A DNA stretch of 64,000 bases from Sphingobacteriales bacterium TSM_CSS (GTDB lineage: Bacteria; Bacteroidota; Bacteroidia; Chitinophagales; UBA2359), in assembly GCA_002212985.1 (NCBI GenBank), contig NBMY01000072.1, positions 1 through 64,000 on the forward strand, read 5' to 3'. Position 1 is the stretch's first letter; every line of letters starts with the position of its first letter. Positions 3,014-64,000 of this stretch are shown piece by piece. A program made the position numbers and the translations under genes. The notes under the pieces are model-generated. The model was not told the DNA's origin. It made no database searches and saw nothing but the letters and a program-made list of their open reading frames with translations.

Positions 3014-3054
3014 GGTAATTTCTTTTTTATGCTCCAAAGGTAAGCAATAAATAC

Positions 3055-3062
3055 CAAATATA
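3055..3062 (-). promoter_or_regulatory. Promoter -7 element of the secreted esterase
   Basis: Reverse strand reads TATATTTG, a perfect TAnnTTTG. Transcription would begin near 3051, about 37 nt before the chosen start. A second match, TACCTTTG, lies at 3035-3042 and could be used instead. Confidence 0.4.
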
Positions 3063-3140
3063 AATACCTGCCCGGCAACGGCAACAACAAAAGCGGCACG
3101 CAAATTTGCATAAAAGGAATTATAGGAACCGGAATTTTGT

Positions 3141-3148
3141 TACTTTTG
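3141..3148 (+). promoter_or_regulatory. Promoter -7 element of trpS
   Basis: TACTTTTG fits TAnnTTTG exactly and ends four bases before the trpS ATG, which places the transcription start at or one base before the start codon. No convincing TTG is at the usual upstream spacing. Confidence 0.5.
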
Positions 3149-3152
3149 CACT

Positions 3153-4172: not shown

Positions 4173-4225
4173 CCACTACCCAAAGCAACAAAACCAACTT
4201 GAAAACCAATTAACATCTGAACGGC

Positions 4226-4861
4226 ATGTCTAAAAAACCGGGTGTAAAACATATTGCAGTAGCAGGCAACATTGGGGCGGGTAAAACCACCCTTGCCGAA
4301 AAACTGAGCCACCACTTTGAATGGAAAATCTTTTACGAAGATGTAGATCACAACCCCTACCTCGAAGATTTTTATGAAGATATGCGGCGCTGGTCTTTTA
4401 ACCTGCAAATTTATTTCCTGAATAGCCGCTTTAATCAGGTAAGAGCCATACAAGAGGGCAATTTTACCGTAATTCAGGATCGTACCATTTACGAGGATGC
4501 CTATATTTTTGCGCCCAATCTGTATGAAATGCAACTGATGTCGGAGCGCGATTTTCAGAACTACATTACCTTGTTCAGAACCATGAGCGCCACTTTTGGC
4601 GCCCCCGATTTGTTAATTTACCTCCGCGCTTCCATAGATACGCTTCTAAAGCAAATAAACAAACGCGGCCGCGAATTTGAAACCAACATACGCATTGATT
4701 ACTTAGAACGGCTGAACAGCTACTACGAAAACTGGATTAGCAACTACAAAGCCGGACCGCTACTTATTATAAACGTTGACGAAATAAACTACGCCGATGA
4801 AGAAGCAGGACTGAGGAAGGTGATAGAGAAGGTATCGGAAAAGCTGAAGGAATTAGAATAA
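4226..4861 (+). CDS. Deoxynucleoside kinase (dAK/dGK type)
   Basis: Phosphorylates deoxynucleosides to 5'-monophosphates in the salvage pathway. The 211-residue protein begins with a P-loop, GNIGAGKTT at about 14-22. A DRT-type motif (QDRTIYED) follows near residue 90, and the pattern RAIQEG and the later RGREFE are typical of the deoxyadenosine/deoxyguanosine kinase family. The lid region with several Arg residues lies around 145-160. Which deoxynucleoside is preferred cannot be read from the sequence. It follows trpS on the same strand. Confidence 0.9.
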   Translation: MSKKPGVKHIAVAGNIGAGKTTLAEKLSHHFEWKIFYEDVDHNPYLEDFYEDMRRWSFNLQIYFLNSRFNQVRAIQEGNFTVIQDRTIYEDAYIFAPNLYEMQLMSERDFQNYITLFRTMSATFGAPDLLIYLRASIDTLLKQINKRGREFETNIRIDYLERLNSYYENWISNYKAGPLLIINVDEINYADEEAGLRKVIEKVSEKLKELE

Positions 4862-4926
4862 CCCGACACCAAGCTAGAACGGCAACCCCTGTTACCCTGT
4901 TTTTTTAGCTTTTCGAAACTTTTTAC

Positions 4927-4955
4927 TTGCAATTTTGATTTATTTAGTAAATTTG
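4927..4955 (+). promoter_or_regulatory. Promoter of tRNA-His
   Basis: TTG at 4927-4929, an 18-nt spacer and TAAATTTG at 4948-4955 match the Bacteroidota housekeeping promoter. Transcription would begin near 4959, about 12 nt before the mature tRNA. Confidence 0.6.
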
Positions 4956-4970
4956 CACCTGCATTTATAT

Positions 4971-5045
4971 GGTACTCATAGCTCAGTAGGTTAGAGCATC
5001 AGATTGTGGTTCTGAGGGTCGTGGGTTCGAATCCCATTGGGTACC
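4971..5045 (+). tRNA. tRNA-His (GTG)
   Basis: Full cloverleaf with anticodon GTG in the loop TTGTGGT (anticodon stem CAGA/TCTG), D-arm AGCTCAG...GAGC and T-arm GTGGG TTCGAAT CCCAT. The extra 5' G at 4971 pairs with C73 at 5045, the identity element of tRNA-His. The acceptor stem has one G-T wobble. CCA is not fully encoded: the three bases after C73 are CAC. Confidence 0.96.
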
Positions 5046-5051
5046 CACAAT

Positions 5052-5091
5052 AAAACCCGCCAAACTTTTACTAAAAAGTTGGCGGGTTTTT
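5052..5091. terminator. Bidirectional terminator after tRNA-His
   Basis: AAAACCCGCC pairs with GGCGGGTTTT at the outer ends, and the inner arms also pair (CAAACTTTT with AAAAAGTTG, one bulge) around a short loop. T-runs on both sides allow termination of the tRNA gene and of the exchanger genes on the other strand. Confidence 0.8.
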
Positions 5092-5112
5092 CTGTTATAA
5101 AAATGCACCTAA

Positions 5113-6072
5113 TCAGGCATTTGTAATCAGGTAAACGGTATAGCCCACAAATACCAGCAACAAAGCGGCTGCCTGCCAACGGTCTAAGATATGTCGCCGG
5201 CCAATAAACATAGTACCAAACAGCAGCACATTGCCAACAAGAAACAGCAGGCAATCGGTATTAAAAGCTGTATGGTACTCAATAGGGTGAATAAATGCAC
5301 TAAGTCCCAAAACAAAAAACAGGTTAAAAATATTAGATCCCACTACATTGCCCACGGCAATATCGCTGCGTTTTTTGCTTGCAGCCACCGCCGAAGTAAC
5401 CAATTCGGGTAAAGAGGTGCCCGCCGCTACAATGGTTAGCCCGATGAGTTTTTGACTAAGTTGCAGTTGGGTAGCAATTTGTACGGCACTATCTACCACA
5501 ATTTTACCACCCAAAACCAGCACTATTAACCCTGCGATGGTTAAAAGAACCGATTTTTTTTTGCCCAGCAGTTCAATTTCTTCATTGGCAGTAACATTGT
5601 CGGTTTTGGTGCTCAGGTAGGCGTAATACAAAAATGCCATAAAAAACATCAGCAACATTACTCCGTCTGTGCGGTCTATGCGGTTTGGGGTGCTTTGGTT
5701 AACAAATACATCATTGGCAATCAGCAGCAGTACCAATCCCGATAAAAAGGAATAGGGGATTTCGCGCCAAACCGTATTGCGCTTTACCGAAAGCGGGTAA
5801 ATAATGCCGGCAACACCCAAAATGACATAGGTGTTAAAATTGTTGCTGCCTATAATGTTGCCTAAAGCTATATCATTGGCTCCCTTAAGCGAAGCCAGCA
5901 CATTTACCACCATTTCGGGGGTAGAAGTGCCAAACGCAACAATGGTTAGCCCTATTACCAGCTCCGGAATGTTATACCTTTTAGCCAGTGAAGCAGCGCC
6001 GCTAACCAGCCAGTTGGCGCCTTTAATGAGCATACCAAACCCGGCAATCAATAAAACAATGCTTATGAACAT
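5113..6072 (-). CDS. K+-dependent Na+/Ca2+ exchanger family protein (YrbG/CaCA)
   Basis: Inner-membrane cation/Ca2+ antiporter of the CaCA superfamily, exchanging Ca2+ against Na+ or H+. The 319 residues carry about ten transmembrane helices in two inverted halves. The alpha-repeat motifs are visible in each half: GLTIVAFGTSTPE at about 41-53 and GLTIVAAGTSLPEL at about 210-223, with GNVVGSNIFN following the second. The acidic residues of both repeats, which bind Ca2+, are present. It is the downstream member of a tandem paralogous pair and ends at the bidirectional terminator behind tRNA-His. Coupling ion is inferred from the family only. Confidence 0.88.
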   Translation of the reverse strand: MFISIVLLIAGFGMLIKGANWLVSGAASLAKRYNIPELVIGLTIVAFGTSTPEMVVNVLASLKGANDIALGNIIGSNNFNTYVILGVAGIIYPLSVKRNTVWREIPYSFLSGLVLLLIANDVFVNQSTPNRIDRTDGVMLLMFFMAFLYYAYLSTKTDNVTANEEIELLGKKKSVLLTIAGLIVLVLGGKIVVDSAVQIATQLQLSQKLIGLTIVAAGTSLPELVTSAVAASKKRSDIAVGNVVGSNIFNLFFVLGLSAFIHPIEYHTAFNTDCLLFLVGNVLLFGTMFIGRRHILDRWQAAALLLVFVGYTVYLITNA

Positions 6073-6159
6073 GGGTAAAAGTTATAGCTGTAAAAGGGCA
6101 TTTTAGTGAGCAAGGGAAATGCAGGTGCAAAAATGCAAAAAAAAGCCACCTTTCACTCT

Positions 6160-7125
6160 TTAAACGGCTTCAAAAATGAGATAGCACGTGTAACCTAAGA
6201 ACACCAGCAGTAAAACCACAGCTTCCAATCTTCCCAAAATATGGCGCTTGCCCACAAACATAACCCCAAAGAGGAGTATGGTACCAACAATTAGCAACAG
6301 GCAATCGGTGTTAAAAGATAAATTATAATTAATAGGCTTAATAACAGCACTCAGCCCCAGGATGAAAAAAACATTGAAAATATTGGAGCCAACCACGTTT
6401 CCCACGGCAATATCGCTGCGTTTTTTCATGGCAGCCACTGCCGAAGTTGCCAATTCGGGTAAAGAGGTACCGGCGGCTACAATGGTTAGCCCTATGAGTT
6501 TTTCGCTTACTTGCAAGGTGCGGGCAATGTCAATGGCGTTATCAACCACCAATTTACCGCCAGCCACCAATAAGGCCAATCCGGCAAGGGTAAACCCGGC
6601 CGATTTTAATCCGCTCATTACCTTTATTTCTTCGTTGTCTTCGGGTGCATCATCGGTTTTGGTACTCAGGTAGGCATAATACAAAAAGGCAGCAAAAAAG
6701 AGCAGCAGCATAATGCCATCGGTTCGGTCTATGCGGTTGCCGGCAGTTCCGTCAACAAACACATCATTGGCTACCAGCAGCACAATAAGCGCCGCCAGCA
6801 AAGAGTAGGGAATTTCGCGCCACACTGTGTTTCGCTTTACCGAAAGGGGGTAAATAATGCCGGCAATACCCAATATAAAAAACAGGTTAAAGTTATTGCT
6901 TCCAATGATGTTCCCTAAGGCTATATCGTTTGAACCTTTAAAGGAAGCCAGCACGTTTACCACCAGTTCGGGGGTGGAGGTGCCAAAGGCAACAATCGTA
7001 AGCCCGATAACCAGTTCGGGAATGTTGTATCTTTTTGCTATAGAGGCTGCGCCGCTAACCAGCCAATCGGCGCCTTTAATGAGCAAAACAAATCCAATGG
7101 CCAGTAAAACAAGGTTTAAAATCAT
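6160..7125 (-). CDS. K+-dependent Na+/Ca2+ exchanger family protein, tandem paralogue
   Basis: Second CaCA-family antiporter, 321 residues, collinear with and very similar to its downstream neighbour. It has the same two alpha repeats (GLTIVAFGTSTPELV and GLTIVAAGTSLPELA) and the same GNVVGSNIFN motif. The middle cytoplasmic loop differs most: here it is acidic (DDAPEDNEEIKV), in the other copy shorter. The 87-base gap suggests a single transcript. The pair reflects an old tandem duplication, since many third positions and the loop have diverged. It lies downstream of the malic enzyme, separated by a terminator. Confidence 0.88.
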   Translation of the reverse strand: MILNLVLLAIGFVLLIKGADWLVSGAASIAKRYNIPELVIGLTIVAFGTSTPELVVNVLASFKGSNDIALGNIIGSNNFNLFFILGIAGIIYPLSVKRNTVWREIPYSLLAALIVLLVANDVFVDGTAGNRIDRTDGIMLLLFFAAFLYYAYLSTKTDDAPEDNEEIKVMSGLKSAGFTLAGLALLVAGGKLVVDNAIDIARTLQVSEKLIGLTIVAAGTSLPELATSAVAAMKKRSDIAVGNVVGSNIFNVFFILGLSAVIKPINYNLSFNTDCLLLIVGTILLFGVMFVGKRHILGRLEAVVLLLVFLGYTCYLIFEAV

Positions 7126-7165
7126 GTTTTTTGTTGGTTGAATAAATGGTTAAATTAAAATAACA

Positions 7166-7199
7166 TGCCGCCTTTGCCGAGTAAGCAGCAAAGGCGGCA
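7166..7199 (-). terminator. Terminator behind the malic enzyme gene
   Basis: A perfect 12-bp stem, TGCCGCCTTTGC with GCAAAGGCGGCA, around a 10-nt loop. On the minus strand it is followed by TGTTATTTTAATTT, a moderately T-rich stretch, so it can end the malic enzyme transcript before the exchangers. Confidence 0.6.
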
Positions 7200-7258
7200 C
7201 AAATATACAGACACATGTTTTCATAAACCACAGTTACTAAACGGCAATCCTTATTTGC

Positions 7259-8449
7259 TTACCATACTACCACCGGTTCTTCATTGGCAGCCATTTCAAC
7301 AGCCTGAGTTACCGCTGCAACCACCCGCTCATCTAACACCGAGGGTATTACCTGCTGTGCTGTGGGGTTACTTACGCAGCCGGCAATGGCATAGGCAGCG
7401 GCCAGTTTCATGTGGGCGGTAATGGTTTTTGCCCGGGCGTTGAGCGCCCCCCTGAAAATACCCGGAAATCCCAAAACATTGTTAATCTGGTTCGGGAAAT
7501 CGCTGCGGCCGGTTCCTACAATGGCGGCTCCGCCGGCAAAGGCGTCATCGGGCATAATTTCGGGGGTGGGGTTGGCAAGGGCAAAAACAACGGCATTGTC
7601 GGCCATCAGGCGTATATCGGCGGGGGTTAAAAGATTACCTACGCTTACGCCAATAAACACATCGGCATTGTGCAGGGCATCTTGCAAAGAACCGGTTTCG
7701 TTATAAGGGTTGGTATAGCGCAACACTTCCTGTTTAATGCCGTTTAAGTCGGTTCGGCCGCGGTGTATAATTCCTTTGGTGTCGGCCATCAGTACGCTTT
7801 TAACCGGTATGCAGGCTTCGTTATTGTTGCTTACACAGCGCAACAGGCGTGCAATGGCCACGCCGGCAGCCCCCGAACCGTTGATAACCACTTTCAGGTC
7901 TTCGAGGTTTTTGCCCAGCACCTTGCATGAATTGATTAAACCTGCTAAGGCTACCACGGCAGTTCCGTGCTGGTCGTCGTGAAAAACCGGAATGCCTATG
8001 TCTTGCAAACGCGCTTCAATTTCAAAACAGCGCGGCGCCGATATGTCTTCAAGGTTAATGCCTCCAAAAACGGGCGCAATGTTTTTTACCGTCTGCACTA
8101 TTTCATCGGTATCTTGCGTATTAAGGCAAATAGGAAACGCATCTATGCCGGCAAACTTTTTAAACAACATGGCTTTGCCTTCCATGACCGGTATGGCGGC
8201 CAGCGCACCAATATTGCCCAAACCCAATACGGCAGAACCATCGGAAACAACGGCTACGGTGTTGTTTTTTATGGTGTATTTCCACACTTCATCGGGGTTG
8301 GCAGCAATTTGCAGGCAAGGTTCGGCAACGCCGGGCGAATACAGGAGTGATAAATCGCGGGTGGTTTCAATATCCATTTTAGGGATTACGCTTATTTTAC
8401 CACCCAGTTTTTGGTGCAAGAGGAGAGATTCCCGATTAATTTTTTCCAT
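7259..8449 (-). CDS. Malic enzyme (oxaloacetate-decarboxylating malate dehydrogenase), short form
   Basis: Converts malate to pyruvate and CO2 with reduction of NAD(P)+, linking the TCA cycle to pyruvate. The 396-residue length is the short bacterial form without the phosphotransacetylase-like C-terminal domain. Visible motifs are YSPGVAEPC near 37-45, VLGLGNIG near 75, the metal-site segment INLEDISAPRCFEIE near 131-145, FHDDQHGTA near 155 and the dinucleotide-binding VINGSGAAGVA near 188. The cofactor preference is not clear. The ATG at 8449 gives the family-typical N-terminus. A terminator separates it from the two exchangers downstream. Confidence 0.93.
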   Translation of the reverse strand: MEKINRESLLLHQKLGGKISVIPKMDIETTRDLSLLYSPGVAEPCLQIAANPDEVWKYTIKNNTVAVVSDGSAVLGLGNIGALAAIPVMEGKAMLFKKFAGIDAFPICLNTQDTDEIVQTVKNIAPVFGGINLEDISAPRCFEIEARLQDIGIPVFHDDQHGTAVVALAGLINSCKVLGKNLEDLKVVINGSGAAGVAIARLLRCVSNNNEACIPVKSVLMADTKGIIHRGRTDLNGIKQEVLRYTNPYNETGSLQDALHNADVFIGVSVGNLLTPADIRLMADNAVVFALANPTPEIMPDDAFAGGAAIVGTGRSDFPNQINNVLGFPGIFRGALNARAKTITAHMKLAAAYAIAGCVSNPTAQQVIPSVLDERVVAAVTQAVEMAANEEPVVVW

Positions 8450-8669
8450 TTAGTTAATTTTTTTGCATGGTTACACCCTGTTCTGTATTCACTTAGCGGT
8501 ATAGGGCGGGCACAGGGTTGGTGTATTTGATTGGAGTTTGTACAAAAAATAAAAACGCTGAAAAGGCGGTTAAAGTTTTTCTTCACAGCGTAAAACCGTT
8601 AAAAAGCGCCTGCAAAAGCTATTGAACCGAAAAGCAAGGTGAATTGTTCTGAAAGGAAAAATGTAAAAC

Positions 8670-9062
8670 ATGTCGTTGTTAGAAAAATTATTCCCGAAAG
8701 AAGAAACACCTGCCCTTAACTGGAAAAACTTGAGTACCGAAGCCGGCTTAGCCGACCTTATCCATCGCTCATACACTGTACCCTGTGGTATATTTAAACA
8801 CAGTACGCGGTGTTCGGTTTCGGATATGGTAAAAAACCGGTTGGAAAAACGCTGGCAATTTGCCCCCGATGCCCTTGAAATGTACTACCTCGACCTCATT
8901 CGTTACCGTGCCGTATCTAACCGCATAGCCGAGTTTTTTGAGGTAAAACACGAATCGCCCCAGTTCATTGTTATTAAAGACGGAAAAGTGGCTTACCACA
9001 ACTCGCACACTGCCATTGATGCCGAAGAAGTGGCCGAAGCGCTTGGTGAAGGAAAATTATAA
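8670..9062 (+). CDS. ytxJ: YtxJ-family monothiol bacilliredoxin
   Basis: Small cytoplasmic thioredoxin-fold protein of the YtxJ (BrxC-like) family, which removes bacillithiol or other low-molecular-weight thiols from oxidised proteins. The 130 residues contain the redox motif FKHSTRCSVS with a single active-site Cys near residue 47, in place of the CXXC of thioredoxins. The family cis-Pro segment is at SPQFIVIKDGKV near 95-106. The ATG at 8670 starts the family-typical segment LLEKLFPKEE. It stands alone, with a convergent prephenate dehydratase downstream. The presence of bacillithiol itself is inferred from the family. Confidence 0.85.
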   Translation: MSLLEKLFPKEETPALNWKNLSTEAGLADLIHRSYTVPCGIFKHSTRCSVSDMVKNRLEKRWQFAPDALEMYYLDLIRYRAVSNRIAEFFEVKHESPQFIVIKDGKVAYHNSHTAIDAEEVAEALGEGKL

Positions 9063-9120
9063 ACAGTAGTAATTCTGTTGAAGGAGCTAACCGGCACACC
9101 TGCCTTTGCCGGTATATTCA

Positions 9121-9966
9121 TTACACGGTTTCAGACTTAATCCCTTCGGCATACTCGCCCAAAATATGGAGGCTGTTTACCCGCGTTCCTATGGCTTCAA
9201 TAGCTTGCCGGTAGGCCGCATAATGGGTAAAGGTAAGGTCTATATGAAAAAAATACTCCCACGGTTTACCCGGCAGCGGCAGTGATTGTATTTTGGTAAG
9301 GTTCAGTTCATAATGCGCCAACAGGGTTAATATGGCGGCCAGTTCACCCTGCCGGTGTGCGGCATGAAAACAAACCGATGCTTTGTTGGGCACCTGCAGG
9401 GGGTTGCGGGGCAGCGCGCGGTTGTGTTGCACTACCCAAAAGCGGGTAAAATTTTGCTTGTTGCTTTCAATACCCGCCACAAGTACCGAAAGGTTGTAAT
9501 ACTGCCCTGCCAGCTTACCGGCAATGGCGCCTACGCCTTTTTTACCCTTGCTGCCCACTTCGCGGGCGCTAAGGGCAGTATCGGGCGATTCAATGAGCCG
9601 AATATACGGGTATTGGTCAAAGAAATCCTGACATTGGGCAATGGCCATCGGGTGCGAATACACTTCCCGAAGGTCTTCAATTTGCTGCCCTTCCAACGCC
9701 AGCAAGTTGTGCTCTATGCGCAGATATACTTCGCCAATAATAGACAGTTCGGAGTTGCGCAACAGGGCATAGTTGGGCAAAATGGTTCCGGCCAACGAGT
9801 TTTCTATGGCTACTATGCCGTAGTAGTTGGGGCTGCACTTAAAACTACCAAACAATTGGTTAAACGACAGGCATTCAACGGTGGTAATGGGTTGGTTGCC
9901 AAAGTATTTTTGCGCTGCCAACTCATGGAAACACCCTTTTATGCCTTGTATGGCTACTTCTTTCAT
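9121..9966 (-). CDS. pheA: Prephenate dehydratase
   Basis: Converts prephenate to phenylpyruvate in phenylalanine synthesis. The 281-residue protein is monofunctional, with no chorismate mutase domain. The catalytic part (about 1-185) ends with NFTRFWVV, which holds the conserved Thr-Arg-Phe triad, and IENSLAG lies near 62. A C-terminal ACT domain (about 196-270) would bind phenylalanine; its ESRP signature reads QSLP here. I chose the ATG at 9966 because the family begins at this point and a promoter match lies just upstream. A 50-residue in-frame extension to 10116 covers that promoter. Confidence 0.92.
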   Translation of the reverse strand: MKEVAIQGIKGCFHELAAQKYFGNQPITTVECLSFNQLFGSFKCSPNYYGIVAIENSLAGTILPNYALLRNSELSIIGEVYLRIEHNLLALEGQQIEDLREVYSHPMAIAQCQDFFDQYPYIRLIESPDTALSAREVGSKGKKGVGAIAGKLAGQYYNLSVLVAGIESNKQNFTRFWVVQHNRALPRNPLQVPNKASVCFHAAHRQGELAAILTLLAHYELNLTKIQSLPLPGKPWEYFFHIDLTFTHYAAYRQAIEAIGTRVNSLHILGEYAEGIKSETV

Positions 9967-9987
9967 GCTTTTTTGCGTTAAAAGCCG

Positions 9988-9995
9988 CAAAAATA
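9988..9995 (-). promoter_or_regulatory. Promoter -7 element of pheA
   Basis: Reverse strand TATTTTTG. Transcription would begin near 9984, about 17 nt upstream of the chosen ATG, which excludes the longer in-frame start. Confidence 0.5.
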
Positions 9996-10225
9996 AACAA
10001 AGGAAGCTTAGAAACCACACCGGCATAGGCATTGCCTTGCGGTATATCATAGGATAAGTTGACTTGGCACATTGGTTTAACGGCTGCCCCCAAAGTTGGA
10101 AAGGTAAACACAGCACATGAGTATATTAATGGTAAATACCGGCTCCACATCTGCCCATGCCGCTTTTGGTAAACCTAAATGGCCAAACTGCCGAAGAAAA
10201 TCTTTCAAATTGCCGCCAATGAATG

Positions 10226-10233
10226 TACCTTTG
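10226..10233 (+). promoter_or_regulatory. Promoter -7 element of the YfcE-type phosphoesterase
   Basis: TACCTTTG, 29 nt before the ATG at 10263. It lies inside the longer in-frame reading frame that begins at 10179 and so argues for the shorter protein. Confidence 0.45.
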
Positions 10234-10262
10234 CAGAGTTGAAACCACAACAACAGTGCCTC

Positions 10263-10760
10263 ATGACCCGAATTGGCATAATTTCCGACACGCATGGCTA
10301 CCTCGATGAACGGGTGTTTTACCACTTTGAAGAATGCCACCAAATATGGCACGCCGGCGATATTGGCACGGAGGAAGTTGCCCGCGCTCTGGAAGCTTTT
10401 AAACCGGTGAAAGCCGTGTACGGCAATATTGACGGGCACCTGCTGCGGCAATCCTACCCCGAAAACCAACATTTTCTGTGCGAAGAAACACCGGTTTTTA
10501 TAACCCATATTGCCGGTACTCCGCCCAAATATGCTGCGCGAGTGTTGCATGAAATACAAACACACAAACCGGCAGTGCTGGTTTGCGGGCATTCACACCT
10601 GTTAAAGGTACTGCGCCTGCCCCAGTTTGGCAACCTGTTGCACATTAACCCCGGCGCTGCCGGAAAATCCGGATTTCACAAGGTGCGCACCCTCATACGC
10701 CTCAGCATAGCGCAACAGCGCATATACGACCTGGAAGTAATTGAACTGGGGAAAAGGTAA
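10263..10760 (+). CDS. YfcE/MJ0936-type metallophosphoesterase
   Basis: Cytoplasmic calcineurin-like phosphodiesterase of the YfcE/MJ0936 family; members hydrolyse model phosphodiesters or 2',3'-cyclic substrates with two metal ions. The 165-residue form starts with MTRIGIISDTHG. The metal-site motifs appear in order: SDTHG at about 8-12, AGDIG near 35, YGNID near 62, HI (from THIAGTPP) near 85 and GHSH near 110, with NPGA near 130. Length and motif order are those of the family. A 28-residue in-frame extension upstream lacks homology and crosses the promoter match. It is convergent with the porin gene. Confidence 0.9.
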   Translation: MTRIGIISDTHGYLDERVFYHFEECHQIWHAGDIGTEEVARALEAFKPVKAVYGNIDGHLLRQSYPENQHFLCEETPVFITHIAGTPPKYAARVLHEIQTHKPAVLVCGHSHLLKVLRLPQFGNLLHINPGAAGKSGFHKVRTLIRLSIAQQRIYDLEVIELGKR

Positions 10761-10871
10761 ACCCAATACCGCAAATGTGTTAACAATAGTGCAATTGTTG
10801 TTAATGATTTAAGGCGGAACCCACAGCTGCTAACAAAGCGTTGAAGGGCACCATAACCACACAGGTTGGCA

Positions 10872-12197
10872 TTAATGCAAAACACCCACAAACCGGTTTT
10901 TCATTTTAGGGCGGTACAGCAGCATTAAATAACACCAGTTTTGAATAGTTTTTGGGTTGCTTACCTGTTGCAGCGTTTCTAAGGCGGCAGCCGGAAACAA
11001 CTGACTATATCCGCTTTGTACCGACAGGGTTTCGTTGAACAGGTAGCCAAAAACAAAATCGGTTTCTGCTGTAAGAAACTTTGGCAACCGTTGGCCGTTG
11101 TTGTTTACAACGGCGGCTACGGCGCTAAAACCATGGGTGTTAAGTGTAATAAAGCCTTTGGCATTAAAATCGAAGCGCAACCGCAAAAAAACATCGGCAA
11201 TTCCTGCCGAATTTTCGTGCCGCCCGCTCACGTAAAACAAATCCATACAGCCGTTATGGGCGTGATTAGTGCCATACAGTGGCGTATAAGAGTAGTTTGC
11301 ACCGCTGGTATAATTGGTTGCAGTACCGCTTAGCACTTCGGCGCCGAGTGTGCTGCGCAGTTTTCGGGATTTTACTGGGTTCAGTTCAAACAAGCCCGAA
11401 ACCTGTAAACAGGCATCAAAGGCATTTACCTTTTTTCCTGCTGCGTTTTTACCTGTTTGTTGGTAATAAAACCCCGAAAAGGTGAATACCTTACCCCACC
11501 GGTATTTGAGTGCCGAAATGCCGAAAGTTTGCATAAAATACACCCCTTTACGGGTTATCTGGTTCAGTGAGTCGGTCATGGTAAACTGCCTGCCGTCATT
11601 CCAGAAAAGAACGGAAAAATCAAAGTTGCCAAAGGCGTTTTCATAGCGCAACATTTGGGCGGTTTTGTATTGGTTGGCAACGGTTAAAATATTGCCGGCC
11701 AGTTTTTCGCCGTCTTGGTTATAGCCCCCGCCAAGGTGCAGTTTAAGGTTGTTCTTTTCATATTTTAACAGGGCAAAATCATGGGTTCTGCCTTGCAACG
11801 CCCAATCTACATTGCCCAAAAACCTGAAATTGTCGTAATTTAGCTCCTGCCTGCCGGTTTTTAAGTGCCAGAAACTGTCTATTTCCACTTCGGCCCATGC
11901 TTCGTAAATAGAAAAAAAGCCATCGGTTGTTTTAAGTTGCGGCGTGTTGCCCCACGTTCTTATATCTTGGGCTGCGGCATACAGGGTTGCCTTTTTAAGT
12001 TTGTAAGCAGCTTGCAGTCTCAATCTTTGCCCAATAAAAAAAGCAGGGTCCTGGTTTTTTGCTATCAGTTTGCCATAGCCGTTTCTAAATTCTGCCCGTT
12101 GCATTAGTTGCCCCTCTACCGAAAACTGCGCCCAAAGCGCCTGGGTGCAAAACAAAAGGGCAAAACCGGTAAAAATGGCACATAAATGCTGCCGCAT
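10872..12197 (-). CDS. Alginate-export-like outer membrane beta-barrel protein
   Basis: Predicted outer-membrane porin of the alginate export (AlgE-like) group. The protein is 441 residues with a signal peptide ending in ALWAQ near residue 24. The rest is rich in alternating aromatic/polar beta strands, with family-typical segments such as GQRLRLQ near 60, EAWAEVE near 100 and GRQELNYDNFRFLG near 117. No lipobox and no sorting domain are seen. I start at 12197; an in-frame start at 12272 adds 25 residues ahead of the signal peptide. No polysaccharide genes are adjacent, so the cargo is unknown and alginate itself is not implied. Confidence 0.72.
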   Translation of the reverse strand: MRQHLCAIFTGFALLFCTQALWAQFSVEGQLMQRAEFRNGYGKLIAKNQDPAFFIGQRLRLQAAYKLKKATLYAAAQDIRTWGNTPQLKTTDGFFSIYEAWAEVEIDSFWHLKTGRQELNYDNFRFLGNVDWALQGRTHDFALLKYEKNNLKLHLGGGYNQDGEKLAGNILTVANQYKTAQMLRYENAFGNFDFSVLFWNDGRQFTMTDSLNQITRKGVYFMQTFGISALKYRWGKVFTFSGFYYQQTGKNAAGKKVNAFDACLQVSGLFELNPVKSRKLRSTLGAEVLSGTATNYTSGANYSYTPLYGTNHAHNGCMDLFYVSGRHENSAGIADVFLRLRFDFNAKGFITLNTHGFSAVAAVVNNNGQRLPKFLTAETDFVFGYLFNETLSVQSGYSQLFPAAALETLQQVSNPKTIQNWCYLMLLYRPKMKNRFVGVLH

Positions 12198-12387
12198 AAA
12201 GGTGGTTAAAAACGTTTTGAGGTAAATAAAGCCTTTGCACAGCAACAAAAAAACCGATAGTGTGCCGGGCAACTAAAAATTGTATGAAAAAAAACGCACA
12301 TCATGTATTCAGAAAACCGGTTATCGCTGTTGGATGAGATACCCGATAATAAGCCATTTTGGCATCGGGAAAAGGAAAAAATCAAAA

Positions 12388-14358
12388 TCATTCAATTTTC
12401 AGCAACAAGGCATCGGCTTCCACAAACAGCTTTTCCTGTACATACACTTCGGCAATGGTGCCGTTTTCGGTAGCTTCAATGGCATTTTCCATTTTCATGC
12501 TGCTCAAAATCAACAGTATGTCGCCTGCTTTTACCACATCGCCGGGTTTTACCAGCACTTTTACCACTTCGCCGGGCATTGGAGCGGTGTATGCACCTTT
12601 CAAAGTTTCCTTTTCTTTTTCGGGAAAAGGCGATACTTTTTGCAGGGAAATGCTGCCCCAATCGGGCCAATGAAGGTGCAAAGCAGCAGGCGTATCGGCC
12701 ACCGTAAAACAAAAACGGTGCCGGTTAATGGTGCAAACAAGGGCATGGGGTTCGGCACTGTTAAGGGTAGCATCATAATAATTGCCGTTTACATACACAT
12801 CTAATTGGTTTTGGCTTTTTGTTCGATAAGAGCACTCTATTTCTGTGCTGCCCCAACGGAAAACCTCCATTTGGTTTTGGTAGTAATTATTGCGCCAACC
12901 CGATGGTAATTGTTTGAGCAGGGTTCGTTGTCCGTTGCGCTGCTGCCACTGCCAAAGCAGCGCCGCCACGGCAAACTGCTCGGCGGCGTTTTGGGTAAGG
13001 TGACGGGCATTATAGGTAAAATGGCTGCCAATAAAATGAGTATCAAATTGCCCGTCAATAAATTGGGCATTATCTAATATTTGAACAAGGAACTCTTTGT
13101 TGGTGGTAAGCCCCAAAACGGCCAATTCCTGCAAGGCTCGTCGCATTTGACGAATGCAGTCGTAGCGGTTCGGCGCCCAGGCAATAACCTTGGCAATCAT
13201 GGGGTCGTAGTAAATGTCAATAACCGAGCCGCTTTCCACGCCGGTATCGTAGCGCATACCGCCTGTTTTGCCGGGTTGCCACAGGTATATGGTTCCGGTA
13301 GTGGGTAAAAAGTTGTTGGCGCTGTCTTCGGCATACAGGCGGCATTCTATGGCATGTCCTTTTTGTTGCAGGTCTTTTTGGCGCACCGGCAGGGCAAGCC
13401 CTTGTGCCACTTCAATTTGCAGTTGTACCAAATCAAGTCCGGTAACCATTTCGGTTACGGGGTGTTCAACCTGCAGGCGGGTGTTAACTTCCAGAAAGTA
13501 AAAATTACCTTCGGGCGAAAGTATAAATTCTACGGTGCCGGCATTGTCGTACCCTATTGCTTTGGCAGCTTCTACGGCCGCGTGCCCCATAGTTTGCCGC
13601 AGGGCAGGAGAGAGGGCCGGCGAGGGGGTTTCTTCAATAATTTTCTGGTATCGGCGTTGTATGGAGCATTCTCGCTCAAAGCAATGAATGGCATTGCCGT
13701 GTTTATCGCCAAAAATCTGAAACTCAATATGCCGTGCAGAGTCAAAGTATTTTTCAATGAGCAGGGTACCATCTCCAAAAGCCGACAGTGCCTCTCGTTT
13801 GGCTGCCTCTATTGATTTAGACAAATCGGCGGCAGTGCGCACAATGCGCATACCTTTACCTCCGCCCCCGGCCGAGGCCTTTAACAACACCGGAAACCCG
13901 ATGCGGAGGGCTTCGTTGGTTAGCGTATCGGTATCCTGATGTTCGCCGTTGTAGCCCGGTATGGTAGGCACACCGCGCTGCTGCATAATGTTTTTAGCGC
14001 CAATTTTCGACCCCATGGCTTCAATGGCTTTTGGGTTGGGGCCAATAAAAATTAAACCTTCGTCCATGCAGCGTTGTGCAAAGCCGGCATTTTCAGATAG
14101 AAAGCCGTAGCCCGGGTGTATGGCATCTGCCCCGGTCAGTTTGGCTGCTTCCATTATTTTTTGCTGGTCGAGGTATGATTCGGCGGCACTGCGCCCGCCA
14201 ATACAAACCGCTTCATCGGCTTGTTTTACAAACAGGGCATTTTCATCGGCATCGGAGTAAACGGCTACGGTGGCAATACCCATTTGGGTGCAGGTGCGCA
14301 TAATGCGCAAGGCAATTTCGCCCCGGTTAGCAATCAGTATTTTTCGTATAAGATGCAT
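12388..14358 (-). CDS. Biotin-dependent acyl-CoA carboxylase alpha subunit (MCC/PCC type)
   Basis: Carboxylates enzyme-bound biotin using ATP and bicarbonate, for transfer to an acyl-CoA by a partner beta subunit. The 656 residues contain the biotin carboxylase N-terminal domain (about 1-115), an ATP-grasp domain with the Gly-rich loop GGGGKGM near 164 and EVNTRLQVEHP near 290, the C-terminal carboxylase domain (about 335-445), a linker, and a biotinyl domain with the acceptor lysine in SSMKMEN near 628. Length and domain order fit methylcrotonyl-CoA or propionyl-CoA carboxylase alpha subunits rather than the roughly 450-residue AccC. No carboxyltransferase partner is in the window. It is divergent from pbpC. 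Confidence 0.87.
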   Translation of the reverse strand: MHLIRKILIANRGEIALRIMRTCTQMGIATVAVYSDADENALFVKQADEAVCIGGRSAAESYLDQQKIMEAAKLTGADAIHPGYGFLSENAGFAQRCMDEGLIFIGPNPKAIEAMGSKIGAKNIMQQRGVPTIPGYNGEHQDTDTLTNEALRIGFPVLLKASAGGGGKGMRIVRTAADLSKSIEAAKREALSAFGDGTLLIEKYFDSARHIEFQIFGDKHGNAIHCFERECSIQRRYQKIIEETPSPALSPALRQTMGHAAVEAAKAIGYDNAGTVEFILSPEGNFYFLEVNTRLQVEHPVTEMVTGLDLVQLQIEVAQGLALPVRQKDLQQKGHAIECRLYAEDSANNFLPTTGTIYLWQPGKTGGMRYDTGVESGSVIDIYYDPMIAKVIAWAPNRYDCIRQMRRALQELAVLGLTTNKEFLVQILDNAQFIDGQFDTHFIGSHFTYNARHLTQNAAEQFAVAALLWQWQQRNGQRTLLKQLPSGWRNNYYQNQMEVFRWGSTEIECSYRTKSQNQLDVYVNGNYYDATLNSAEPHALVCTINRHRFCFTVADTPAALHLHWPDWGSISLQKVSPFPEKEKETLKGAYTAPMPGEVVKVLVKPGDVVKAGDILLILSSMKMENAIEATENGTIAEVYVQEKLFVEADALLLKIE

Positions 14359-14377
14359 ATTTCAGTAAAATGTGCGC

Positions 14378-14406
14378 CAAAATTAACACCAAAACCGTTT
14401 ATTCAA
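14378..14406 (-). promoter_or_regulatory. Promoter of the carboxylase alpha subunit
   Basis: On the minus strand, TTG (14404-14406), an 18-nt spacer and TAATTTTG (14378-14385). Transcription near 14374 gives a leader of about 16 nt. Confidence 0.5.
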
Positions 14407-14500
14407 AACAAAAGGCAAAGATTTGATGTAAGTTTTGAAAAAACAGTCAATCGGCAGGATAAAGGTTTTTTCCCGAAATTTAATTACCGCATAAAACCCG

Positions 14501-14508
14501 TATCTTTG
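14501..14508 (+). promoter_or_regulatory. Promoter -7 element of pbpC
   Basis: TATCTTTG, 24 nt before the ATG at 14533. It lies within a longer open frame starting at 14221, so the long frame is not the translated form. Confidence 0.5.
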
Positions 14509-14532
14509 CAGGTAAAGGCAGCAATAAGCAGC

Positions 14533-16881
14533 ATGAGCGTACAACAAAAACTGATACAATGGTTTGAGCAGCAGCTACACAAGTGCCGTCGCAACGAGCG
14601 GTTGTTGTTTGCCGCCTGTGCCCTGTATTGTATGGCGCTGTTTGCTGATATGCTACTTCCGCCCCAAAGCACAAAGGTAGAATACTCGCAAATTATTACC
14701 GATAAAGAGGATAACATTTTATACGCCTTTCTTACCCGCGACGACAAGTGGCGCATGATGACCGAACTGAATGAAATAACCCCCGAACTGCGAAAGGCGA
14801 TTGTTTTTAAAGAAGACAAGTATTTTTATTTTCATTATGGCATAAACCCTGTTGCCATAGTAAGGGCAGCGGTAAACAATATGGCATATGGCAAACGAAC
14901 ATCGGGGGCAAGCACCATAACCATGCAGGTAGCGCGCCTGTTGCAGCCCAAAAAACGCACTTACGGCAACAAAACTATAGAAATACTGCGCGCCCTGCAA
15001 TTAGAGTGGCATTACAGCAAACTGCAAATTTTGCAGCTATACCTCAATCTGGTGCCCTATGGCAGCAATATTGAAGGGGTAAAATCGGCTTCGGTGTTGT
15101 ATTTTAACAAAATGCCCAACCATTTAAGTTTGGCCGAAATTACCGCTTTGTCTATTATTCCAAACCGACCTACCTCGCTTCAAATTGGTAAAAACAACGC
15201 ACAACTTACCGAAGCCCGCAATAAATGGCTGCAACGGTTTGCCCGCGCCCGCCTGTTTACCAAAGATGCCATTGACGATGCACTGCTGGAACCCTTTAAT
15301 GCCGGCAGGCTGGAAGCACCTAAACTGGCGCCCCACTTTGCATGGCGAATGAAGGACATGTTTCCCGATATGCCCATTGTTAAAACCAATCTGCGCTACA
15401 ACACCCAACTGAAAACCGAAACCATGGTCAGCAATTACATCAAACGCCTGTATTACCAGCATATACGCAATGCGGCGGTAGTAGTGCTAAACAACCGAAC
15501 CATGGAAGTGGAAGCCTATGTTGGCTCGGCCGATTTTTTGAATACCGAAGACGGCGGCCAGGTGGACGGTGTAAAAGCCCTTCGCTCGCCGGGCAGCGCA
15601 CTGAAACCCTATTTGTATGCCCTTGCATTTGACAAAGGCGTGGTTACGCCCAAACTGAAAGTTAGTGATGTGCCATCCAATTTTTCGGGTTATACGCCGG
15701 TTAATTTTGACGGCACTTACAACGGCAGTGTTACCATAGAAGACGCACTCGCTTATTCGCTCAACATACCGGCGGTAAAGGTGCTGAACGAACTGGGGGT
15801 AAATTACTTTGTTGACCAATTGTCGAAAGCGGGGTTTGGACAGGTGCAGGCAGACCGCAGTAAAATGGGTTTGTCTTTGGCGTTGGGCGGGTGTGGTGTG
15901 CGGTTAGAGGAATTGGTAAAACTGTATGCCGCTTTTGCCAACAAAGGTTTGTTTTACCCGGTAAGATGGCTGAAAAACGAACCTGCCGATACCGGTTCTG
16001 TAAGACTTTTTTCTGAGCAGGCTGCCTATGTTATCACCGAAAACCTTACACGCATTAGCCGTCCAGATTTGCCTAAAAGCATAGAAAGCAGCAAAAGTCT
16101 GCCCAAAATTGCCTGGAAAACCGGCACTTCCTATGGCCGCAAAGATGCCTGGAGCATTGGCTACAATGCCAACTACACTATTGGTGTTTGGGTGGGCAAT
16201 TTTTCGGGTGAGGGCGTGCCCGAATTGGGCGGCGCAGTAACCGCTACTCCGCTGCTGTTCGAAATATTTAATACAGTAAATTATTCGCCCGGCAGCGATT
16301 GGTTTGCCCCACCCGAAAACTTAGAATACCGATGGGTTTGCTCTGAAACCGGGCTATTGCCGCAACCCGACTGCAACAACCGCGTAATGGATTATTACCT
16401 GCCCATGATTTCTACCAACAAAATGTGCCATCACCAGCAGGAGGTATTTGTTTCGGCCGACAGCAGCTTTACCTATTGCACTGCCTGTTTGCCCGAAACC
16501 GGCTATAAAAAGAAAAAATATCCCCTTTACCCGCCAGAAATTGTGGCTTTCTACGAACAACAGGGAATTCCTTACGAAAAAATTCCGCCCCATAACCCCA
16601 ACTGCGACCGCCTGTTTAGTGGCAACGCACCCCGTATTACCTCGCCCGTAAACGGTTTGGAATACCTGCTCGACCCATTAGACAACACCGAACTGATGCT
16701 TACCTGCAACACCTCTAACGATGTGCAATTGGTGCATTGGTATATTAACGAACTTTACCTGCAACCGGCGCCGCCAACAGGTAAACTGTTTTTTACCCCT
16801 AAACCCGGACGAAACAAAATTACCTGTGTTGACGACAAAGGAAGGAAGGAGCAAATTTGGATTACTGCCAAATTTCTTTGA
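14533..16881 (+). CDS. pbpC: Penicillin-binding protein 1C (bifunctional transglycosylase/transpeptidase)
   Basis: Inner-membrane anchored peptidoglycan synthase, 782 residues. A single transmembrane helix lies near 25-45. The glycosyltransferase 51 domain (about 65-225) shows EDKYFYFHYG, with its catalytic Glu, and GASTITMQVARLL. The transpeptidase domain (about 300-590) has SALK (SxxK, in SPGSALKP), SLN (SxN) and KTGTS (KTG). A C-terminal PBP1C-specific beta domain (about 690-782) completes the architecture. The ATG at 14533 is preferred over the long frame from 14221 because a promoter match sits at 14501. In enterobacteria pbpC is next to an alpha-2-macroglobulin gene; here that partner lies 9.4 kb further on. 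Confidence 0.93.
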   Translation: MSVQQKLIQWFEQQLHKCRRNERLLFAACALYCMALFADMLLPPQSTKVEYSQIITDKEDNILYAFLTRDDKWRMMTELNEITPELRKAIVFKEDKYFYFHYGINPVAIVRAAVNNMAYGKRTSGASTITMQVARLLQPKKRTYGNKTIEILRALQLEWHYSKLQILQLYLNLVPYGSNIEGVKSASVLYFNKMPNHLSLAEITALSIIPNRPTSLQIGKNNAQLTEARNKWLQRFARARLFTKDAIDDALLEPFNAGRLEAPKLAPHFAWRMKDMFPDMPIVKTNLRYNTQLKTETMVSNYIKRLYYQHIRNAAVVVLNNRTMEVEAYVGSADFLNTEDGGQVDGVKALRSPGSALKPYLYALAFDKGVVTPKLKVSDVPSNFSGYTPVNFDGTYNGSVTIEDALAYSLNIPAVKVLNELGVNYFVDQLSKAGFGQVQADRSKMGLSLALGGCGVRLEELVKLYAAFANKGLFYPVRWLKNEPADTGSVRLFSEQAAYVITENLTRISRPDLPKSIESSKSLPKIAWKTGTSYGRKDAWSIGYNANYTIGVWVGNFSGEGVPELGGAVTATPLLFEIFNTVNYSPGSDWFAPPENLEYRWVCSETGLLPQPDCNNRVMDYYLPMISTNKMCHHQQEVFVSADSSFTYCTACLPETGYKKKKYPLYPPEIVAFYEQQGIPYEKIPPHNPNCDRLFSGNAPRITSPVNGLEYLLDPLDNTELMLTCNTSNDVQLVHWYINELYLQPAPPTGKLFFTPKPGRNKITCVDDKGRKEQIWITAKFL

Positions 16882-60149: not shown

Positions 60150-61580
60150 ATGAGCCGTACCCGATTTAAAACAGCCAATATCGTTTTTTTTCTGCTTTTA
60201 ACCTTTCTTATAGTTTACCTGTTCAATAGGCAAAAAGCAGAGCAAAAGCTAATAGAATGGGGGCTGAAAAGCCCGCCCGATACCACCAATACACAGGTAC
60301 TGCCACCCGATACCGGTTTGCTGCCATTGCCATCCGATAGCATACTGCGCAACAACCTTTTGCCCGGTTTACAACCGCCCGATACCAGCGGGCTGTCAAC
60401 CTGGCGCATTTTAACCCAGGGTCATACCGGTTTTTATGTAGGCGGTCCCAACCGTTTTATGGTACAGGCCGCCGAAATTGACCCCGAACAAATAACCCCG
60501 GTAGTAAGCGGCAGCCATGCAGCTATAGAAACCATTGATAAAGAAAAAGGACTTTACCGACTTTATGCACAAGAGGCTGGTACTACAGAAATATCGTTGT
60601 TTTATGTAAACAGCAGCGGCGCTACCGATGTATTGGGAAGCCAAAGTTTTACCATTCTTGCCAAAGCTCCCGCAGAATTGCAACAACCCGATGCAGGGTA
60701 TTTATGGAGCATTGTTACCCAAGTACCCGATACTTTGTTATATGGCAACAACAACCCTCTAATAATAGCTGTTGCCGAAACTGCCCCTCAAAGCATTGAG
60801 GCTTCCATTAGCGGGCAGGGCAACGAACTGCTGTTAACCGATACAGCCAACGCTGTTTACAATGCCGTTATCAGAACGGCCGGAAGTGTAACCATTACCG
60901 TTAGCATTACCAATGGCACACAAACACGGCTGTTGGGCAGCAAACAATTTGTGGTAAGCGGCGCCGGATTGCCCTCCGGCAAAACGCAGGCAGATACAAA
61001 CAACCAACAACCATCGGCAGATTCTACACCCGTAATACTGGCACAAAAAACTTTAACCTTGTATGCCGGCATACCCAACACTTTGTATCTTCAGTTACCG
61101 CCGCAAACCACCCTGCAAACAAACAACGGAACTCTGGCATATAACGGTAAAACCTGTACCATCACACCTTCAAAACCGGGTTTCCTGAAACTTGCCGCAC
61201 AGGATAATAACGGAAACCCGCTGTTTAACAGGCAATTTGAAGTGGTGCAAACACCCAATCCGGCTATTGCCATATCGGGCAACAGCGGCGGCAATGTACC
61301 GGCGGCAACGCTGCAAAATGCAAAAAGGCTGGAACTGGTAAAGGTAAACGGTTTTGACAAACCCGACTTTACCCTGTTGTCTTTCGACCTTGTTTTTTAC
61401 CACCCCAACGGGCGAGGTATGGTAAAGGTAAGCAATAAAGGCCCCGATTTTAACCCAGAAATCTTGCAACACTTGCAACTTATAAACTCCGCCGATTTGC
61501 TGTACTTCAACAATATACGGGTTGCCGCAACAGACGGCAGTAAACGCACACTATCAACTGCCGTTTTTGTGGCACAGTAA
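60150..61580 (+). CDS. Membrane-anchored protein with Ig-like repeats and a GldM-type C-terminal domain
   Basis: A 476-residue protein. One N-terminal transmembrane helix (NIVFFLLLTFLIVYLF, about 9-24), then a Pro/Asp/Thr-rich linker (about 35-80). Three beta units follow, each opening with a Tyr-x-Gly-x-x-Asn-type segment: FYVGGPNRF (about 93), LYGNNNPLI (about 197) and LYAGIPNTL (about 309). The last part, RLELVKVNGFDKPDFTLLSF and DLLYFNNIRVAATDGSKRTL, resembles the C-terminal domain of GldM/PorM, the periplasmic rod of the type IX secretion/gliding motor. The helical domain of true GldM after the membrane helix is absent, and gldK, gldL and gldN are not here. I start at 60150; the upstream in-frame ATG at 60102 would add a second hydrophobic stretch. 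Its function is open; a periplasmic rod or cargo adaptor is possible. Confidence 0.6.
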   Translation: MSRTRFKTANIVFFLLLTFLIVYLFNRQKAEQKLIEWGLKSPPDTTNTQVLPPDTGLLPLPSDSILRNNLLPGLQPPDTSGLSTWRILTQGHTGFYVGGPNRFMVQAAEIDPEQITPVVSGSHAAIETIDKEKGLYRLYAQEAGTTEISLFYVNSSGATDVLGSQSFTILAKAPAELQQPDAGYLWSIVTQVPDTLLYGNNNPLIIAVAETAPQSIEASISGQGNELLLTDTANAVYNAVIRTAGSVTITVSITNGTQTRLLGSKQFVVSGAGLPSGKTQADTNNQQPSADSTPVILAQKTLTLYAGIPNTLYLQLPPQTTLQTNNGTLAYNGKTCTITPSKPGFLKLAAQDNNGNPLFNRQFEVVQTPNPAIAISGNSGGNVPAATLQNAKRLELVKVNGFDKPDFTLLSFDLVFYHPNGRGMVKVSNKGPDFNPEILQHLQLINSADLLYFNNIRVAATDGSKRTLSTAVFVAQ

Positions 61581-61734: not shown

Positions 61735-63195
61735 ATGAAAATCATTACCCGCATTTTTTTTCTGTTGTGTTGTTTTTCCATCTTGTTGCAGCCGTTGCAG
61801 GCACAAAAAAAACGGGCTACCGGTCTTCGGTTCGATGATGCCGAATACAATGCCGTTCAGCGTAAAAGCGATTTTAAAGGGCATCTTTTTGCAACCATGC
61901 CTTTTTCGGCAAGTCTTAAACAATACTGTCCCAATATCGGCAATCAGGGCGAAATTGGCTCTTGCGTTGGTTGGGCAAGCACTTATGCAGCTACTACCAT
62001 ACTCAATGCCATTAAATACAACTGGACCGACAAACAAACCATTACCAACCATGCCCTTTCGGCTTTGTTTGTGTATAACCAAATAAAAATAGGCACCTGC
62101 GACGATGGGTCGCGCATACCCGATGCCGCTGATTTCCTTAAACAAAACGGCTCCTGCCTTAACAACAGTTTTACCTCTTCCGATTGCTATGTTTTGCCGC
62201 CCGATAACCTGTTTGCCGAAGCCGGCCAATACAAAATTAAAGATTACGCTATTCTTTTTACCACCGACGAAACCAATCCCAATGAGCGCATCTACAAAAT
62301 TAAGCAAAGCATAGCCGATAAAAAACCGGTTATAATTGGTATGACCGTAAGCGACGATTTTATGAATATACCACAGGGCACCGACACTTGGAACTATAAC
62401 CCCGATAACTTTATTTACGCCGGCGGACATGCCATGTGCATTATTGGTTTTGACGACAGCAGAGGCGCTTTTGAAGTAATGAACAGTTGGGATACCAATT
62501 GGGCCAACAACGGCTTTGTATGGATAAAATACAACGACCTGGCCACTTTAACCAAATATGCTTTTCAGTTTTACCTGTTCGATAAAAATGAAGACAACGA
62601 TATTGCCAACTTAGCCGGCGAGTTTAATTTCCGCTATGTAGTGCCCGGCAATGGCATAGTTTTTGAAAACGCAACAGTTACCCACAAAGGCAACGGTTAC
62701 TACGAAACCGACCGAAAAGACTGGCAACTGGGACAGTTATTTCAGTTAGTGGCAAAAAATAAACGCAACAATGAATATGTTTATGTGTTTAGTGTTGATG
62801 CAGATTACAATGTGAATGTTCATTTTCCCCGAAAACAAGAGTACAGCAAAACCCGGTTTCACGGTTTTAACGAAGCGCCCTTAGTGCCCGAAAACAATGT
62901 GGAAATCATTATTCCGACGCCCGATTCGGGGTTGAGCATTACCACACTGGGCACCGATTACCTGTGTGTGCTGTTCTCTACCCGCGAAATTTCCGATTTT
63001 GGCGCTATGGTGCAGCGCATTCAAAGCGAAATGGAATATGGCAGCAGCATGGAAGAAGCCCTGCAAAACAATATTGGCGAAAAATTAGTGCCATCTTACA
63101 ACATTCAATACCAGTCAGATAAAATGGGTTTTACCTGCAACAGCAATGCAGGCAGCATAGTGCCGTTGGTGCTTCGGGTCGATTCGGGGCAATAA
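61735..63195 (+). CDS. Secreted papain-family (C1) cysteine protease with DUF4384-like domain
   Basis: A 486-residue exported protease. The signal peptide ends with PLQAQ near 24. The C1 catalytic domain (about 55-290) has the oxyanion Gln71 (NQGEIGSC), the nucleophile Cys77 (GSCVGWAS), His232 (YAGGHAMC) and Asn250 (VMNSWDTNW); all four are present, so it should be active. A beta domain after it (about 320-425) shows QLFQLVAKNKRNNEYVYVFS and NVNVHFPRK, a pattern of DUF4384, a domain otherwise often attached to caspase-like proteases. There is no type IX sorting domain, so it is probably periplasmic. The next gene begins 45 bases downstream. Confidence 0.82.
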   Translation: MKIITRIFFLLCCFSILLQPLQAQKKRATGLRFDDAEYNAVQRKSDFKGHLFATMPFSASLKQYCPNIGNQGEIGSCVGWASTYAATTILNAIKYNWTDKQTITNHALSALFVYNQIKIGTCDDGSRIPDAADFLKQNGSCLNNSFTSSDCYVLPPDNLFAEAGQYKIKDYAILFTTDETNPNERIYKIKQSIADKKPVIIGMTVSDDFMNIPQGTDTWNYNPDNFIYAGGHAMCIIGFDDSRGAFEVMNSWDTNWANNGFVWIKYNDLATLTKYAFQFYLFDKNEDNDIANLAGEFNFRYVVPGNGIVFENATVTHKGNGYYETDRKDWQLGQLFQLVAKNKRNNEYVYVFSVDADYNVNVHFPRKQEYSKTRFHGFNEAPLVPENNVEIIIPTPDSGLSITTLGTDYLCVLFSTREISDFGAMVQRIQSEMEYGSSMEEALQNNIGEKLVPSYNIQYQSDKMGFTCNSNAGSIVPLVLRVDSGQ

Positions 63196-63240: not shown

Positions 63241-64000
63241 ATGAAATGTTTTCCCGGAATAGCTTTTAGCTTGTTCTTTTTGATTTCGCAATTGGTGGTA
63301 GCACAAGGGCAAATAATTGGATGCTCTTACGATGGAAGTGTGGTAAATACAGATAATTTATGCCGGTCTCTTAAATTTGCCTCCAACTCCGATGCCGAGT
63401 CTTCCATTGATGATATGCTTCGGCAAATTGGGTTAAAGCGCAATTTTGCTATAATGGAATGCCCCGGCACCGAAAACTGTATGGCAGTTACCATAGAAGG
63501 CATACGGTTTATAATTTATGACAATGCTTTTTTGAGCAAGTTTAAAACCTACCGCTTTTCTGAAGCCCCGCTGATAGGCGGCAGCAGCAGCACTACTGCC
63601 GATTGGGCGGCAATTAGCATTATGGCACACGAAGTAGGGCATCACCTCAACGGTCATACCCTGCAGGCGGGTGGCAGCAAGCCCGATTTAGAACTGGAAG
63701 CCGATGAGTTTTCGGGTTTTATCTTGTATAAATTGGGCGCCACCTTGGAGCAGGCACAACAAGCCATGCGCAGCCCCCTTATTTCAGACTATGGAACCTT
63801 TACCCACCCGCCCCGGCAGCAGCGTCTCAATGCCATTGCCACCGGCTGGAACAATGCCCGAAACCTGACGGCGCCCCCCGATTTACCCCCCTTGTTTGAC
63901 CAGCCCAACCTGCCAGAAATGGTATATATTGAAGGCGGCAGTTTTAATATGGGCTACAACTCGCTACTGAGTTTAGATGAAGGCCCTGTTCATCCGGTTA
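63241..64000 (+). CDS. Secreted M48-like metallopeptidase fused to an FGE-type sulfatase-modifying domain (partial)
   Basis: A reading frame that starts at 63241 and is still open at the window edge (253 codons visible). It begins with a signal peptide (AFSLFFLISQLVVAQG). The M48-type zinc site follows: HEVGH at 130-134 in ISIMAHEVGHHLNGH, with a later ELEADE segment whose Glu151 is the likely third ligand. From residue 227 a second domain starts with MVYIEGGSFNMGYN, the opening of formylglycine-generating-enzyme-type (SUMF1-like) domains, the same fold found in GldJ/GldK/PorK. It probably shares the transcript of the papain-type protease. What the fused domain does cannot be read here. Confidence 0.78.
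   Translation, partial: MKCFPGIAFSLFFLISQLVVAQGQIIGCSYDGSVVNTDNLCRSLKFASNSDAESSIDDMLRQIGLKRNFAIMECPGTENCMAVTIEGIRFIIYDNAFLSKFKTYRFSEAPLIGGSSSTTADWAAISIMAHEVGHHLNGHTLQAGGSKPDLELEADEFSGFILYKLGATLEQAQQAMRSPLISDYGTFTHPPRQQRLNAIATGWNNARNLTAPPDLPPLFDQPNLPEMVYIEGGSFNMGYNSLLSLDEGPVHPV

Follow-up and report, generated by a model that had tools for sequence, protein, structure and literature searches.

A gene that runs off the end of the window encodes an exported M48-type peptidase fused to a domain of the SUMF1/FGE fold. The window is the whole stretch of 64,000 bases analysed here, corresponding to bases 1-64000 of the 74,266-base contig C52 of the source genome (G000). In two relatives, a diversity-generating retroelement (DGR) targets the FGE end of fusions built in the same way. 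We consider it probable, with appreciable room for doubt, that the protein is an M48-type zinc peptidase held on its ligand or substrate by a non-catalytic module of the FGE-type C-type-lectin (CLec) fold. The fusion would be exported and either periplasmic or released. Its C-terminal domain would act as a recognition module without catalytic function and would keep the peptidase on one particular ligand or substrate.

The fusion protein and its peptidase module

The open frame of the fusion gene contains no stop up to the end of the window and terminates at contig base 64599, yielding a protein of 452 residues (Table 1). The earlier note on this DNA, made from the letters of the window, had placed a HEVGH metallopeptidase and a SUMF1-type domain in one exported protein. 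The complete gene bears this out: both domains are matched by Pfam profiles within a single ORF, the stop or frame break feared right behind the window is absent, and the FGE domain is whole. The second domain is indeed of the SUMF1 fold. Residues 224-450 cover positions 2-255 of the 255-position FGE-sulfatase profile (E 9.1e-55), a full-length match.

Table 1. Positions of the features described in the text. Features without a locus label lie on contig G000:C52, numbered as in the window.
Feature	Location	Strand	Evidence or remark
Protein with GldM third and fourth domains	60150..61580	+	Profile matches; the T9SS GldM of G000 is another gene
Exported papain-family (C1) peptidase with DUF4384	61735..63195	+	45 bp upstream of the fusion
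M48-FGE fusion gene	63241..64000, on to 64599 in G000:C52	+	Open frame; first 253 of 452 codons in the window
Sec signal peptide, type I, MKCFPGIAFSLFFLISQLVVAQ, without lipobox Cys	63241..63306	+	Read by eye from the sequence
M48-type metallopeptidase module, about residues 24-208	63310..63864	+	Profile match, alignment, model
HEVGH zinc-binding/catalytic site, residues 130-134	63628..63642	+	H130, E131, H134 invariant (40 aligned)
ELEAD third-ligand motif, residues 151-155	63691..63705	+	E151, D155 invariant (40 aligned)
FGE/SUMF1 C-type-lectin-fold domain, start at residue 224 (end, residue 450, past the window)	63910..64000	+	Pfam
Complete diversity-generating retroelement with three M48-FGE targets	L044 (G147:C654) 7978-15364
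RT of the G147 retroelement	G147:C654 10249-11247	minus	RVT_1; IGNLTSQ and YMDD motifs by eye
Template repeat of the G147 retroelement, RGGSWNNNPTNCRVANRNNNNPTNSNNNVGFRLA	G147:C654, near 9609-9739
Retroelement with M48-TSP3-FGE target	L239 (G686:C29) 5378-9330		RT on the opposite strand

From its N terminus, the protein consists of the signal peptide, the M48-type module, a short linker and the full FGE-sulfatase domain. The signal-peptide region forms a helix (residues 8-21) in an AlphaFold model of the peptidase part contained in the window, which has a mean pLDDT of 79.7. The stop codon directly follows the FGE domain, and the protein ends in ...GFRVVKEQ. The sorting tail that the earlier note had envisaged is thus absent, there being no CTD of T9SS cargo at the C terminus. 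A sister species (G129) encodes the same protein with 91% identity and in the same gene order, so the fusion is not an accident of assembly.

The Pfam profile Peptidase_M48 matches the window protein weakly (24.7 bits, cut-off 20.3). The HExxH motif and the downstream glutamate ligand of peptidase family M48 are both present, and an alignment of 40 homologues of the peptidase part shows no substitution at H130, E131, H134, E151 or D155. This conservation suggests an active zinc site and proteolytic activity. Because the first 253 residues of the fusion found no match by sequence in the PDB, a fold search was used for this part. The top match of the peptidase model is E. coli BepA (E 3.7e-4, probability 1.00), with a TM-score of only 0.40, followed by the putative Zn-dependent peptidase 3c37 and then BlaR1 (TM-score about 0.4 or below). 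Since the TM-scores lie at about 0.4 or lower, the modelled fold would be a distant relative of all three.

Partners of the module and retroelements in relatives

The peptidase module is a promiscuous Bacteroidota cassette with many C-terminal partners. Of 395 Bacteroidota genomes, 16 carry it at E<=1e-8, and a profile search at E<=1e-10 detects it in 40 of the order's 398. Named holders among the matches listed include Emticicia, Runella, Hymenobacter, Pontibacter, Rufibacter and Aequorivita, along with a few Pseudomonadota and Chloroflexota. All 49 scanned module proteins match M48 of Pfam, and their C-terminal partners comprise MORN (8), TPM (6), TPR, Sel1, SH3, DUF4384 and others.

FGE partners occur in 15 genes from nine genomes of two families, so that the fusion, which the earlier note proposed to seek in other genomes, does recur. 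Eleven belong to the window's family (G000, G129, two in G123, four in G147, two in G099, and G151); those of the other family are found in G745 (two), G761 and G686. Among the matches listed, from which near relatives may be absent, none of the 52 named module loci has an FGE partner. In the FGE tree, the eleven fusions from the family of the window are not monophyletic (AU p 9.7e-47), and at least four changes are forced by their distribution. In the M48 tree, a quick tree with many open forks, the window module lies nearest to three G123 modules that have no FGE domain. As the fusions are not one clade and the nearest modules are without FGE, the domain was probably joined to the peptidase module more than once.

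Two further module loci were noted. Six adjoining M48-module genes with differing C-termini occupy positions 2459-13302 of an Aequorivita locus (L087). At L250 (G250:C76, 2384-4823), an M48 module is fused to what looks by eye like a FISUMP-type domain, beside a papain-DUF4384 gene.

The retroelement of G147 contains an HRDC-domain accessory gene alongside the RT. Each of its three variable repeats forms the 3' end of an M48-FGE gene close by. Relative to the template repeat, 15, 13 and 12 of 31 adenines are changed in these repeats, versus 1, 2 and 1 of 71 other bases, an adenine bias with Fisher values of 1e-8 to 2e-6. The retroelement of G686, a genome from another family than the window's, is an independent case. 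Its target differs from the template at 11 of 26 adenines and at 1 of 68 other bases; its variable repeat falls short of the template in length, which puts the end of the target gene out of frame. Both genomes therefore hold the three marks of a DGR target: an RT, a template repeat and adenine-specific changes in the variable repeat.

Three FGE genes of G123 (L005, L199 and L200), two of them fused to M48, have hypervariable ends, with variable codons between constant ones, and near-identical 3' flanks. Neither a template nor a related RT was found in the G123 assembly. Four genomes of the window's family (G111, G012, G099 and G042) contain retroelements whose FGE targets are without peptidase.

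Since a retroelement rewrites the same kind of fusion in relatives, the FGE domain may choose what the protease meets. It could otherwise be a self-inhibitory or stabilising lid, or a structural appendix, with no specific target outside the protein. Such a role, to which we give a minor chance, would agree with the great diversity of module partners and with the short tails of some versions, but the independent acquisition of FGE partners points to outward recognition, as does the adenine-directed diversification of the C-terminal variable stretch in G147 and G686.

For the species of the window itself, the evidence points to a fixed recognition surface and not to a diversified one. No related RT is found in G000 or G129, whose assemblies are both about 87% complete, and the 3' end of the window gene has no further copy in G000, G129 or G012. 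Within the stretch from RGGSW to GFR, where variation would be expected, 3 of 24 codons differ between the window gene and G129, close to the 42 of 452 over the whole protein. In these assemblies the gene thus has neither a template repeat with RT nor a hypervariable 3' end, and it was rejected as a retroelement target. The window protein could still be the target of a retroelement that acts in trans or that the assembly lacks, which is conceivable given an assembly 86.9% complete and a same-genus genome (G012) with a retroelement and FGE target of its own. We regard this as very unlikely in view of the missing RT and second copy and the unremarkable codon changes; in addition, the tail of the window protein, GFRVVKEQ, differs from that of the G012 target, GFRLAVAPV.

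Neighbouring genes and the gliding/T9SS ring

The papain-family gene upstream of the fusion has its Cys, His and Asn in place, as read by eye; its DUF4384 match (23.2 bits) lies under the cut-off of 27. Homologues of this papain-DUF4384 gene are located beside or near M48 modules, always on the same strand, in eight genomes (G000, G129, G147, G151, G123:C65, G761, G277 and G250). The copy in G151 has an in-frame stop. The fusion probably works together with this neighbouring peptidase, to judge from their arrangement. The DUF4384 literature offers no function of use for this locus.

In PADLOC, neither the fusion nor the papain gene nor the GldM-domain gene had a match, and a known defence system was set aside on this ground. 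A phage origin of the peptidase was likewise discarded, as tblastn against 50,697 phage records gave no match. Locus L002 (10516-14265) encodes a very large exported repeat protein with Ig/cadherin-like repeats, as judged by eye, that runs off the contig end.

The earlier note had pointed to a GldM-like gene upstream and proposed that the fold tethers the protease to a gliding or secretion ring. The upstream gene does contain the third and fourth domains of GldM, but it scores 35.8 bits against a cut-off of 180 for whole-protein GldM (NCBIfam), and the papain-DUF4384 gene lies between it and the fusion. Its product is a stand-alone protein with an N-terminal membrane segment, as seen by eye. 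The true GldM of G000 is encoded at C59:9900-11423 (354.7 bits, cut-off 180), near a GldK-like FGE protein (C59:12456-13559). The fusion scores 131 against GldK (cut-off 350) and 58 against GldJ (cut-off 458; both NCBIfam). In the FGE tree, a branch with 100/99 support separates the GldK row from all fusions.

These scores, the tree and the position of GldM and GldK on C59 led us to discard the ring link, and it is most improbable that the peptidase is anchored to the ring, or given access to ring-bound substrates, by its FGE-fold domain. The fold is common to GldK, GldJ and PorK, the fusion has weak GldK and GldJ matches, and the GldM-domain gene stands two genes upstream; against this, the recurrent neighbour is the papain-DUF4384 gene and not a gld gene, and the protein has no CTD tail. 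What survives of the proposal is, in general terms, delivery of the protease by the fold to a bound target; the ring as that target is unsupported. A ligand-binding CLec-fold domain of the kind that retroelements diversify would be the better model.

The FGE domain and comparison with known systems

The best solved relative of the FGE domain is the Treponema denticola variable protein TvpA (2y3c), and solved FGEs and PorK are also related. The FGE subtype of the CLec fold is a known ligand-binding scaffold (PMC6328139). In the alignment, the catalytic stretch GGSYLCHDSYC of S. coelicolor FGE corresponds to GGSWATPTTDC in the fusion. The first cysteine is replaced by Thr422 and the second is kept as Cys427, so that the active-site pair raised in the earlier note is incomplete. 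FGE catalysis requires both cysteines of the pair. The domain is thus likely to serve in binding rather than as an FGE enzyme. A catalytic domain, whether formylglycine-type or another FGE-fold oxidase, with the peptidase processing the modified protein, is highly unlikely and was dismissed on the cysteine pair: the FGE-sulfatase match is strong and weak PvdO and EgtB matches exist, but the first catalytic cysteine is a threonine and the PvdO, EgtB, SenA and OvoA scores are far under cut-off.

Taken together, the fold, the lost FGE cysteine, the repeated acquisition and the retroelement targeting in relatives suggest recognition of the peptidase's target by the FGE domain. In the FGE tree, most of the diversified G147 and G123 fusions lie apart from the window domain, and a function carried over from them to the window gene is for this reason an analogy.

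A wider proposal is more doubtful, and we offer it tentatively. The fusions may represent an exported Bacteroidota protease family in which a DGR-reprogrammed targeting domain sits on a fixed M48 cutter with a papain-DUF4384 partner, the window gene being a fixed, single-aim member. Most known proteins diversified by retroelements are adhesins, phage receptors or intracellular sensors. A diversified domain fused to an exported protease could open to study the question of whether protease targeting evolves on demand in bacteria, and the window gene, as a simple fixed version, is suited to structural and activity work. A literature search with most subscription journals outside its reach found no paper on M48 with a diversity-generating retroelement or on M48 with FGE-sulfatase.

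Several known systems resemble the fusion in part. Periplasmic M48 peptidases of the BepA/LoiP type are also exported zinc peptidases with a C-terminal interaction domain. In the fusion, however, the partner is of the FGE/C-type-lectin fold and not TPR, the module is Bacteroidota-centred, and the TM-score to BepA is 0.40. GldK, GldJ and PorK of the T9SS ring share the SUMF1 fold, but the fusion scores far below their cut-offs, lies on a separate branch, and the true copies are elsewhere in the genome. Formylglycine-generating enzyme is matched over the full length of its Pfam profile, except that the fusion has Thr in place of the first catalytic cysteine.

The DGR variable proteins TvpA, Mtd and TaqVP have the same FGE subtype of the CLec fold, whereas no retroelement was found for the window gene and no diversification is seen in it. 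Conflict systems with DGR-diversified sensors and peptidase effectors are known (PMC10907252, PMC7159879); M48 is not named in the latter. As in the fusion, a CLec sensor and a peptidase are joined or encoded in one operon in these systems. They mostly employ trypsin, caspase or S8 peptidases together with STAND or MoxR NTPases, whereas the fusion is an exported M48 peptidase without an NTPase.
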